Of a stretch of DNA of 64,000 bases, positions 43,826 through 46,863 are shown piece after piece. The first letter of the stretch is position 1. Each line of letters opens with the position of its first letter. The position numbers and the translations under genes are program-made. The notes beneath the pieces were generated by a model that saw only the letters and a program-made list of their open reading frames with translations, was not told where the DNA came from and searched no databases. Source of the DNA: Acidobacteriota bacterium (GTDB taxonomy: Bacteria > Acidobacteriota > Terriglobia > Acidiferrales > UBA7541); the NCBI GenBank assembly GCA_003224085.1, contig QHYK01000060.1, positions 1 through 64,000 on the forward strand. The letters are read 5' to 3'.

Positions 43826-44210
43826 TCTCTTCCCTTCTCCTCACACCTTCCCCGGTCCCCGGGGAACAGCCACGGTCTATCAGGGCCGCACTCTTCCCCC
43901 TCCACGACTTCCTGAGAGGAAATACGACTGGTGGGAAATTGCGGAACAACCGTTTAGAATCGTACGCTGCACGTGCCCCTCAGCGCAAGCAACACCTGCC
44001 TGAGCCAGCTATGACGCATACCCCCACTTCAAGGCAATCCATGAAGGGCGGAGCGATCATGGCAAGGGGGCGACTCAGCTCGCAAGGTGCACCGCGATGA
44101 TTCTCGAGCTGTCTCTTGTGGGATTCCTGAGTCCTCTCGCGCGTAAGTTCGACATCTATCCCTGAGGATCAGGCGCGCGGACCGGACTCAAAAGGGGACG
44201 GAGGACTCCT
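43826..44210. other. Intergenic region between purA and the DruA-transposase element
   Basis: No gene is seen. The purA promoter should lie at its left end. Near 44188-44207 the sequence AAAAGGGGACGGAGGACTCC adjoins the transposase stop and could include the left end of the mobile element; no matching inverted copy was found on the other side. Confidence 0.5.
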
Positions 44211-45755
44211 TCACTCCAAACGAATCTGGCAGGGAGAAGCCAGAAGCTGGCGAATCCGCTCCGCGTCCAACCAGGGTCCGCTACAGGTCGTGCGCAGAAA
44301 CTGAAGCAGACCGCGTAGCCCTCGACTCCGCACCAGACGGACTAGGCGGGCACTGTTTTGTACCAGCATGTTCAGCAGATGCGCAATCTGCATAAGAAAG
44401 TGGAAGCCGCGCATGGCTTCCCAGTTGTAGGAAAAACTGTGTTGATACTGATAGCCCTGCCGCTTCTCCACCAGAATACCTTCCTCGATGCCCCAACGAT
44501 ATCGGGCTCCTAAGTTGCAACGCTCATGCACGTTGTCTCGGTTCAGCGGTACGCTTGAAATCCAAGCATGGCGCGCCCTCTTCGACACCGCCGCGGGCGA
44601 ATTCGCTGCGATCTCTTCCCAGATTTCTTCGCAGACCACCACATGGAGGATCTGTTTCTTGCGCCCCTGCTCGCCGTAGCGATACTCAATTTCGTTCACC
44701 CAGCAGAATCGCTGTTTGCGGTTCCCCCACTTTTGCTCCCGATGATTCTGGAGCTGTAATTTCCCTAACCCCTTCACCTCTTCCCACACCGAGGGGAGAT
44801 CCTTGTCCTGCAGAACGATCATGAACTGCCAGTGGTAGCGGCGGCACAGCTCGAACACCGGACCCTCGGCATAGAGCCCGTCCAGCAAGAGCAAAACGGG
44901 CAGCCGCGGAAAGTGGCCTTTCAAACGCGCGGCCAATCGGTAGAAGGCCTTCAATTCGTAGTCCTGTTTATTCCGCTCCTGATCGCCGTTCTCATAGTTT
45001 AGGAATTCGCTTAACAGCGGGATGGTCATGCCATTGGCAAAGGCCAGCTTCGCTTCCAGCACATACACGTGGTATTGCAGCCGGGTCCCCGTCGCTTCCT
45101 CTTCCTGCTTGGTTTGCACCTGCCGCTCCAGACACTGCTCGGTCCACAGCCAGTCCCGCTTCAGCTTCCCGGTCCCATCGATAGCGATGGGATAACAGTG
45201 CGAAATCAGGTAGCGAGAGAATTTCTTGTTGCGGATGAGTTGTTCGATCAGCTCGAGCAGGCTCTCCTGGATCTGGTTCACTGCGATCCTGGCCAGCAGG
45301 CGGGCCAGCGTATCCTGATGCGGCAAGCTCTCCAGCTCGGGGAACAGCAGTCGCAGGTTCCCCCAGAACTGCGGCAGGCTCATCTCCCGGTTGGCTTCTC
45401 GTCGCGAGCTCATTTGGTACACGAACATCAAAATCCCGTACAACAACAGACAGGTCAGCTTGTGACGGATTAACACTGGATTTCGCGGATCGGGAATCTT
45501 GGCCAGTCGCTTCAACAGTCGGGGCAACACGCAGCGATAGACGCGGAGCTGTTCTTCCGTCGTTTCTTGTCGCGCTTGCTTTTCTTCTTCGACCGTCTCC
45601 CATTCACTTTTTCCATTCCCGATCGTGGCCTTCGGCTGAGGCGCAAGACCTTCGGCTGCCTGACGTTCGCGCAACTTGCGCCGGGCTTCTCGGCGGGCCT
45701 GCTTGTTACGCTTCAGCTCTTCTCTCCGTCGCTGCTGACGGTTGAGCTGCTCCAT
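44211..45755 (-). CDS. DDE transposase partnered with a DUF4338 protein
   Basis: A 514-residue protein. The N-terminus is very basic (QQRRREELKRNKQARREARR), suggesting DNA binding. An ISAs1/IS4-like region follows: IPDPRNPVLIRHKLTCLLLYG, PHQDTLARLL. The catalytic blocks are IAIDGTGKLKRDW (first Asp), VLLLLDGLYAEGPVFE (second Asp) and RWGIEEGILVEKRQGYQY (Glu). ATG 45755 has GGGGAGGAG just upstream. Its overlap with the DUF4338 gene implies coupled translation. The exact insertion-sequence family cannot be settled without a search. Confidence 0.85.
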   Translation of the reverse strand: MEQLNRQQRRREELKRNKQARREARRKLRERQAAEGLAPQPKATIGNGKSEWETVEEEKQARQETTEEQLRVYRCVLPRLLKRLAKIPDPRNPVLIRHKLTCLLLYGILMFVYQMSSRREANREMSLPQFWGNLRLLFPELESLPHQDTLARLLARIAVNQIQESLLELIEQLIRNKKFSRYLISHCYPIAIDGTGKLKRDWLWTEQCLERQVQTKQEEEATGTRLQYHVYVLEAKLAFANGMTIPLLSEFLNYENGDQERNKQDYELKAFYRLAARLKGHFPRLPVLLLLDGLYAEGPVFELCRRYHWQFMIVLQDKDLPSVWEEVKGLGKLQLQNHREQKWGNRKQRFCWVNEIEYRYGEQGRKKQILHVVVCEEIWEEIAANSPAAVSKRARHAWISSVPLNRDNVHERCNLGARYRWGIEEGILVEKRQGYQYQHSFSYNWEAMRGFHFLMQIAHLLNMLVQNSARLVRLVRSRGLRGLLQFLRTTCSGPWLDAERIRQLLASPCQIRLE

Positions 45756-46638
45756 CGCTCCTCCCCTGTAGAAACGATCGAAAGTCCGCCACTAACGGAT
45801 ACACGTAGATCTCCCGCGGCACGGAGGGATGGCGACTGTGACGGCCCATCCGTCCTTCGCCTCGCGTCACCCCCAGGCGAATCCAGTTGGCGGCCTGGTA
45901 GCAAGTTCCCCGGTAACGTCCCACCTCCACGAAAGTCTCCAGCAACACCGGCGCATATCCGTAGCGCTGCTGCCAGTCGCCACGAATTCGCTCGGCAGCC
46001 AACGACAACGCTTTGCTGGCTAAATTTTTGATTCGCAACCAAGGGAATAAAAGGAAGCGCGTGTTCGCCACCACCCAGTTCACCCGCTGCGCCCGATCTT
46101 GTGCGCTCCATCCAATCCAGCGGTCCCGCTCCGCCAGGGCCCAAGCGGCCGCCGCAAACAGCAAACACCCCAGACGGCGCTCCCTTTTCCCCACCAAGAA
46201 GTAGCGCTGGTGCGCCCCAAATGGCCGCCGATATCCCAGCGGGTGATAGCGCGCCACATACTCACTCCACAGCCGGGTGTCGGACTTCCCCAAAACCAAT
46301 TCCAACTGCAGCGGGGCCACATCGCGCACCGTGCCCGTCAGTTCTTCCTCGGGATCGGTGGCGCGGCCGGGAACAACTTCCACGTCCGGCCGCCGGATCG
46401 GTTGCCGCGCCGGCAGCTTGATCAATCCCAGAGCTTCTAACCTCCGCAGAGCGCTGACGCAGGATCTCTCCTTATAGCGACCGGTGGGCGTCACCCAATC
46501 AAGATGCTCGCAGATCGTATAGACCAGCTCGGTCCAGGGCAAACCGCACGTGTCGACGGTCTCCTGAATGTCTTGGATTTCTTGCGCGGTGAACTCGCGT
46601 CCGGACAGAATCTTTGGCGGTCGGTTTCGGATCAGCAT
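45706..46638 (-). CDS. DUF4338 family protein (homologous to Druantia DruA)
   Basis: A 310-residue protein. Residues 15-90 form a winged-helix-like region (FTAQEIQDIQETVDTCGL, LCEHLDW-like block and ALRRLEALGLIKLP). Residues 130-275 match the DUF4338 core: YHPLGYRRPFGAHQRYFLVG, LGCLLFAAAAWALAERDRWIGW, ANTRFLLFPWLRIKNLASKAL, LLETFVEVGRYRGTCYQAANW and LGVTRGEGR. In Druantia anti-phage systems this family is called DruA; its biochemical role is not settled. Here no druB-E genes are present and the partner is a transposase, so a role in transposition is more likely than stand-alone defence. ATG 46638 follows an AT-rich promoter-like stretch. Confidence 0.85.
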   Translation of the reverse strand: MLIRNRPPKILSGREFTAQEIQDIQETVDTCGLPWTELVYTICEHLDWVTPTGRYKERSCVSALRRLEALGLIKLPARQPIRRPDVEVVPGRATDPEEELTGTVRDVAPLQLELVLGKSDTRLWSEYVARYHPLGYRRPFGAHQRYFLVGKRERRLGCLLFAAAAWALAERDRWIGWSAQDRAQRVNWVVANTRFLLFPWLRIKNLASKALSLAAERIRGDWQQRYGYAPVLLETFVEVGRYRGTCYQAANWIRLGVTRGEGRMGRHSRHPSVPREIYVYPLVADFRSFLQGRSDGAAQPSAATERRAEA

Positions 46639-46863
46639 GCGGCAGCCCCCAAGCGCCCGCCATATCATCTCAAAACCGTTTTTGCCTGTCCACTGCTTTT
46701 TTGCGATAAAAAATTTTTGCAGGTGGGCCTAAGTTGTTCGAATTTCACCGGTAGCAGGACTATGCGTCAGAGCTGTGCCTGAGCGCCTGAGCGGACGCCA
46801 TCGATACGATAGCCCAGAAAACCCCAGAGCCTGCCCACTGCATTTCCCGGAGGTAGATATGAT

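Follow-up and report, generated by a model that had tools for sequence, protein, structure and literature searches.

What does a gene for a DruA-domain protein do when it is joined to a transposase gene? The question is raised by a 64,000-nucleotide stretch of an Acidobacteriota bacterium (the window hereafter; contig QHYK01000060.1), in which a gene of the domain family PF14236 (DUF4338) overlaps a DDE transposase gene. The domain is that of DruA in the Druantia anti-phage system, and the original prediction saw in the gene a transposon accessory factor of a kind later drawn into defence. We find that the two genes lie within one bounded transposon and that the DruA-domain protein has its predicted fold and conserved residues in common with Mom of phage Mu. 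On balance we favour, with modest confidence, a reading in which the transposon encodes a transposase and a dedicated Mom-like GNAT partner that probably modifies DNA and works with the transposase.

A bounded transposon with two genes

Both open reading frames (ORFs) and their 50-nt overlap are as first described, and the strong ribosome site reported at the overlap is present as CAGGGGAGGAGCG-ATG before the transposase start (Table 1). Position 46638, where the pair had been taken to end, falls on a Met codon inside the 320-residue ORF, at its residue 11. The DUF4338 assignment is borne out by profile search, PF14236 matching the 320-residue protein with E 1.4e-44 (152.9 bits, cut-off 27), which places it in the domain family. 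The DruA-domain protein and the transposase would be made by translational coupling.

The original prediction had pointed to element ends and target duplications as features to seek, and both are found: a scan of the window for inverted ends bordered by a duplication gave one clear answer, 46775 to 44006. The 15-bp ends differ at one base and the 9-bp target duplication is perfect, which together with the transposase defines a DDE transposon. In another Acidobacteria bin, locus L008 (loci are numbered L, genomes G and contigs C) is 99.6% identical to 46715-44006; the match begins where that contig starts and stops exactly at 44006. The locus is one transposon that moved as a unit in the past.

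Ends of the type CAG, two variable bases and CTGACGCA, with perfect 9-bp duplications, also bound L022, L024, L026, L039 and L213. Three near-identical copies in G1180 share the right end, and full ends with a duplication are found only in L213; for L194 and L204 no ends flanked by a duplication of at least 8 bp were recovered. Across 50 DruA-transposase loci, ends with an exact duplication of at least 8 bp were found in 12, against 1 of 299 mismatched flank pairs. These 12 comprise four elements of the window type, four ISAs1-type fusions (L112, two in G322, and L178), two IS66-type elements (L090, L097), one with DUF772 (L081) and one with DDE_Tnp_1 upstream (L092). No third gene was seen among the five longest ORFs of each of seven bounded elements, where the remaining ORFs overlap the two genes in a different frame or, for L178, are a continuation of the transposase. 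The window's own genome also holds, on contig C89, a 362-bp internally deleted relative (L006, 4237-4598) that resembles a miniature inverted-repeat transposable element; its pieces are 69-90% identical, and it has its own perfect 9-bp duplication, GCTGCAGTG.

The 514-residue transposase matches PF13808 (DDE_Tnp_1_assoc) above cut-off (E 5.2e-11) and DDE_Tnp_1 below it. Its structural model, of modest confidence (predicted local distance difference test, pLDDT, only 62), finds its best solved match in the Tn5 transposase 3ecp (Z 18.6, 298 residues, root-mean-square deviation (rmsd) 4.6), and D193, D292 and E424 are invariant in 11 aligned rows. The PF13808 domain and ends starting CAG are common to the window element and the ISAs1 family, and the 9-bp duplication is close in length to those found in four ISAs1-type fusion elements (9-10 bp); the window element differs in carrying an overlapping partner gene and in scoring 15.5 bits against NCBIfam transpos_ISAs1 (cut-off 70), outside that family. 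It is also far below the cut-off of NCBIfam IS1380. Although Tn5/IS50 is closest in solved fold, its transposase is 11% identical to that of the window. Tn5 makes a 9-bp target duplication, as the window element does, and has different ends; we know of no partner enzyme of Tn5. We therefore describe the window transposase as ISAs1-like only, with a predicted Tn5-type fold.

The partner gene is under purifying selection, with ratios of nonsynonymous to synonymous substitution rates (Ka/Ks) of 0.20 between the window and L009, 0.13 between L024 and L039, 0.20 between L020 and L025 and 0.23 between L023 and L013; for the transposase the first three pairs give 0.15, 0.16 and 0.13. Between L020 and L025, Ks is higher for the DruA-domain gene (1.08) than for the transposase (0.46), which suggests gene exchange between elements.

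Table 1. Features of the transposon and its two genes, in coordinates of the window
Feature	Position	Strand	Basis
Whole transposon, 2,770 bp, two minus-strand genes	44006-46775	-	Inverted ends and 9-bp target duplication
Left terminal inverted repeat, CAGCTCTGACGCATA	46761-46775	-	Ends scan; alike in L022, L024, L026, L039, L213
Right terminal inverted repeat, CAGCTATGACGCATA (inward reading)	44006-44020	-	Ends scan
9-bp target duplication, left copy, GCTCAGGCA (minus strand)	46776-46784		Ends scan and sequence
9-bp target duplication, right copy	43997-44005		Ends scan and sequence
DruA-domain (PF14236/DUF4338) gene, predicted Mom-like GNAT protein, 320 residues	45706-46668	-	ORF and Pfam match
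N-terminal helical region, residues ~24-80	46429-46599	-	Secondary structure of the model
Predicted GNAT-fold core, residues ~115-297, with H142, R204, S218, D/E248, Y257, N261	45778-46326	-	Model and alignment
Ribosome-binding site of the transposase, GGGGAGGAG, within the DruA-domain gene	45758-45766	-	Sequence
Overlap of the two genes, 50 nt	45706-45755	-	ORF coordinates
DDE transposase gene, 514 residues, predicted Tn5-type fold, distantly ISAs1-like	44211-45755	-	Domains, model, D193/D292/E424

Likeness to Mom of phage Mu

The AlphaFold model of the DruA-domain protein (pLDDT 81) has a GNAT-fold core, preceded by a helical N-terminal region that we read as winged-helix-like. DUF4338 is already called a GNAT domain in a published survey (PMC10853773). 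When 999 solved chains pre-ranked by Foldseek were ranked by VIA-align, the best match was Mom of phage Mu (8bv8; Z 13.5, rmsd 3.6, 166 residues, 14% identity).

This placement is further supported by sequence profiles. PHROG 1384, 'Mom-like DNA modification protein', matches 26 of 28 aligned rows at E 0.1 or better (best 1.2e-7), and every other PHROG matches at most one of the 28. A profile of the transposon type compared by hhalign with nine phage Moms gives a probability of 96.6% (E 6e-10, score 72.9), where 20 column-shuffled control profiles score at most 16.2; the smaller 28-row profile gives 90.1% (E 1.6e-6). The Pfam Mom family PF25680 matches two fused relatives below cut-off and does not match the window protein at E 1. 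When the 28-row profile was searched against PDB sequences, the hits stayed at chance level (best E 0.12), so the link to Mom rests on structure, PHROG and profile-profile comparison.

The alignment pairs H142, R204, S218, D/E248, Y257 and N261 of the window protein with H48, R101, S114, D139, Y149 and N153 of Mom (231-residue numbering). H48, R101, D139 and Y149 are residues that we take to be important in Mom, in part from their conservation. In 86 transposon-type rows, where aligned, the conservation is H142 84/84, R204 85/85, S218 83/84, D/E248 77/82, Y257 79/82 and N261 78/80; the same positions in Mom have H in 6/6, R in 5/6, S in 5/6, Y in 6/6 and N in 6/6. S218 falls on Mom S114, the residue replaced by Ala in 8bv8, a crystal of an 'inactive mutant' (S124A in the entry title). 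By model and alignment, then, the fold, nearest to that of Mom, and the key conserved residues are common to the DruA-domain protein and phage Mu Mom. The two differ in that the window protein has an extra N-terminal region, and Mom is encoded at the end of a phage genome whereas the DruA-domain protein is the partner of small transposases.

Transposase partners and the Druantia branch

A search with the DruA-domain protein gave 40 loci, 21 with a window-type transposase (many broken), five with an IS66-type and one with an IS1634-type transposase, one fused to an ISAzo13-type transposase (PF07592) and 12 without a recognised transposase, four of these last being genes cut by a contig end. Because this set is biased by its query, a second search was started from the transposase. 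Among 398 Bacillota genomes 17 match, as a lower bound since at most three candidates were scored per genome. Nine transposases are near full length (566 bits or more), one of which (L191) starts at a contig edge; the other eight intact copies, from six genomes, all have a DruA-domain gene directly upstream (one of these genes is frameshifted, and three of the copies come from one genome). Fragments L201, L203 and L205 have no partner gene, and the 5' part of the transposase is missing too. Among the candidates scored in 396 Acidobacteriota genomes, no intact member of the family other than the window copy was found; its distant relatives there, L182-L184 (75-98 bits), lack a partner gene. The pair, whose recurrence elsewhere the original prediction had left to be looked for, is thus found across phyla and inside one bounded transposon, which argues for more than chance.

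In the same 396 Acidobacteriota genomes PF14236 is found in 32, with 59 rows representing at least 58 places (at most about five candidates were scored per genome; in G322, 5 of 23). Of the 58 places 56 were examined, made up of 54 regions together with L007 and the window, and linkage was scored with our own profiles, on the same strand and within 500 bp. The profiles were seeded from the same loci, and labels such as IS1634-type and Tn5-type were set by domain or profile; many loci are from metagenome bins, and places are partly dependent, some being repeated within a genome and others nearly the same in two genomes. A transposase is linked in 45 of the 56 places, abutting in 34 (33 and the window) and fused in 11, two of the fusions being broken (L106, L118); five others read as Druantia or HerA type (L077, L078, L079, L091, L128). 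The partners recognised by Pfam and NCBIfam include IS66, downstream or upstream and often with an overlap of a few nt, DUF772, DUF4277 (IS1634-type, in L012 and a similar pair in L088), DDE_5 and DDE_Tnp_1, and the fusions have Tn5-type domains or PF13808. NCBI names one fusion 'ISAs1 family transposase', and in plasmid records transposon-type genes are named DUF4338 or ISAs1 transposase. The partnership is tight and widespread by these sequence comparisons, as a neighbour in either order or as a fusion. The window's own genome has a second DruA-transposase pair, of IS66 type with an 8-nt gene overlap (L007, 3276-6099, contig C150). In L043 (1719-3356) a group II intron reverse transcriptase gene stands shortly after a truncated DruA-ISAzo13 fusion, perhaps from an intron inserted in the transposase gene.

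How does the window protein relate to Druantia? The plasmid loci L171, L172 and L173 have an NCBI-named DruA near a large DEAD/DEAH helicase, and in L171 and L173 hypothetical genes also occupy the druB and druC places of the Druantia gene order. Profiles made for the druB, druC and druE places of these loci match nothing in the window, which agrees with the earlier statement that druB-E are absent as far as those three genes go; a druD profile was not made. The core said to be common with Druantia DruA is so at the domain level, through PF14236 and the positions R155, R181, W187 and Y257, but not at the subfamily level: the window protein scores 19.8 bits with the PADLOC model of DruA1, against 410-720 for six long Druantia-type proteins, and the DruA proteins of L171-L173 are longer (409-413 residues) and have the helicase gene nearby. 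Nine Druantia/HerA-type proteins (L171-L173, L078, L079 and four long HerA-linked forms) form one clade with a Shimodaira-Hasegawa-like approximate likelihood ratio of 100, on a very long branch. In these nine rows, in an alignment that is gappy around the residues concerned, H142 is replaced by A (eight) or I (one), R204 by V (nine) and S218 by G (nine), N261 is lost and Y257 is kept in all nine. Since score, clade and active-site residues differ, the window protein is not a Druantia DruA and does not belong to Druantia type I.

Compared with the same six Moms, the transposon-type profile has a probability of 92.4% and the Druantia type 1.0%, and between the two types the match probability is 97.6% (the transposon-type profile has 86 sequences, the Druantia one only 9). 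By profile comparison the transposon type thus stands between Mom and the Druantia type. Because Mom and the transposon type share residues, the Druantia state is probably derived, and we infer that Druantia DruA belongs to the same superfamily as a derived form with a different build. The earlier proposal of transposon first and defence later is favoured to this extent by profiles and residues; the tree bears out a separate Druantia clade, but when rooted on a Mom outgroup by a quick method its branches, of 2.5 and 5.0 changes per alignment column, are too long to fix the attachment, and it does not prove that direction.

Several further arrangements of the domain were seen. Long Druantia-type DruA genes lie in one stretch with HerA-like ATPase genes in L077 (3884-8013), L079 (3863-8309), L151, L167 and L168, with a NurA-like gene (PF09376) between the two in L077, and the HerA gene is further off in L151, L152 and L167. 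No DruE profile match was found in the available stretches of L077, L079, L151, L167 and L168, and these loci perhaps represent a DruA-NurA-HerA defence system. In L110 (3788-7528) the transposon-type DruA gene is followed by two genes (352 and 581 residues) with no Pfam match at E 0.01. PF14236 matches are split in two, in open frames of 702-1297 residues, in the Pseudomonadota loci L161, L162 and L163. DruA domains also occur in plasmid proteins of ~660-1050 residues in Hymenobacter, Roseivivax and Haloplanus (L174, 3194-6352; L175, 2762-4750; L176, 2666-4783), near ATP-binding or FtsK-like genes in L175 and L176.

Possible roles of the partner protein

The accessory role in transposition that was first proposed is upheld by the element ends, the pairing in eight of eight copies and the fusions to several transposase families. 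The specific functions named with it, target choice and DNA opening, have no specific evidence, and fold and residues point instead to a Mom-type acyltransferase. The chemistry of Mom is described as acyl transfer to adenine N6 (PMC7824862). By analogy the DruA-domain protein would be an active acyl-CoA-type transferase acting on DNA bases, most likely adenine as for Mom. It would act in the transposition complex and modify DNA handled by the transposase, whether element ends, donor or target. The role that we judge most likely is a self-made mark on element DNA, which may protect transposition intermediates from host restriction and nucleases. Alternatively the mark might set the timing of transposition and hold it in check, the part played by host Dam methylation in Tn10 and Tn5. 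We know of no transposition mechanism of which self-encoded DNA modification is a part.

A number of observations weigh against a Mom-like, DNA-modifying partner. Other GNATs follow close behind Mom in VIA-align (Z 12.0 and below), and Mom ranks top only by that re-ranking: Foldseek against the PDB lists spermidine acetyltransferases first with no Mom among the best 50 matches listed, and against BFVD the best 50 matches listed are GNATs and uncharacterised proteins, without an entry named Mom. Taken alone, the window protein matches PHROG 1384 at only E 0.037, and the DNA-modifying activity is a prediction; the substrate could be a DNA base, protein or tRNA. Three distant sister transposases (L197, L207, L215; 213-221 bits, 442-446 residues) all have no partner, so it is not needed by all transposases of the window type. 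In Acidobacteriota no transposase is recognised within 500 bp on the same strand at 6 of the 56 places (L080, L109, L110, L126, L129, L130); three of these are fragments, and the genes of L080 and L110 are apparently intact. PF14236 is found in 16 of 349 Pseudomonadota genomes and in 7 of 72 in the class of G397. Only 5 of the 16 Pseudomonadota regions examined (24 rows listed) are transposase-linked, with nothing recognised nearby in seven and no match to the transposon-type profile in four; of four regions examined in the G397 class (nine rows listed), two are linked, one has nothing recognised nearby and one abuts HerA. Transposase linkage is dominant in Acidobacteriota and weaker in these smaller, fragment-rich sets.

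Could the GNAT-fold protein be a structural or DNA-binding transposition factor, for target choice, end binding or synapsis, with catalysis irrelevant? The winged-helix-like reading of the N-terminal region would suit such a factor, and fusion and overlap tie the protein to its transposase in either case. Yet the conserved part is the catalytic core, with H, R, S, Y and N nearly invariant in the 86 rows, and PF14236 begins to match only at model positions 60-66 in the three ISAs1-type fusions that were scanned, so that the N-terminal part seems to be missing. We regard this explanation as rather unlikely.

An acyltransferase that acts on protein or tRNA, modifying the transposase or serving as a GNAT-type toxin or addiction device, would fit the structural closeness of other GNATs, most of which act on small molecules, proteins or tRNA. 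It is set against sequence profiles that favour Mom (26 of 28 rows match PHROG 1384) and the absence of a visible third gene from the seven bounded elements, and we think it improbable. That an insertion sequence picked up a lone DruA as passenger anti-phage gene, as the Druantia-derived name of the Pfam domain might suggest, seems to us very improbable, and we reject defence cargo in view of the constant pairing (eight of eight assessable copies), the fusions to several transposase types, the two-gene elements, the Mom-type residues that Druantia DruA lacks, the low PADLOC score and the lack of a druB, druC or druE match in the window.

The favoured reading, a dedicated Mom-like partner that probably modifies DNA, can be extended further. 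It is conceivable, and we offer it tentatively, that prokaryotic DDE transposition in general has a subunit for Mom-like base modification, acquired repeatedly, with which transposons mark their own DNA as they jump, and that the defence protein DruA of Druantia descends from this transposon enzyme. Among the titles listed from the open literature we found no published link of the DruA/DUF4338 domain to transposases, and an earlier description may exist. Given the transposase linkage of 45 of 56 Acidobacteriota places examined, a match to PF14236 should not by itself be taken to indicate Druantia. If the favoured reading is true, many small transposons would carry their own DNA-modification enzyme, an overlooked partner common to several transposase families, and DruA, whose activity is not understood, would gain a testable chemistry and a possible origin.

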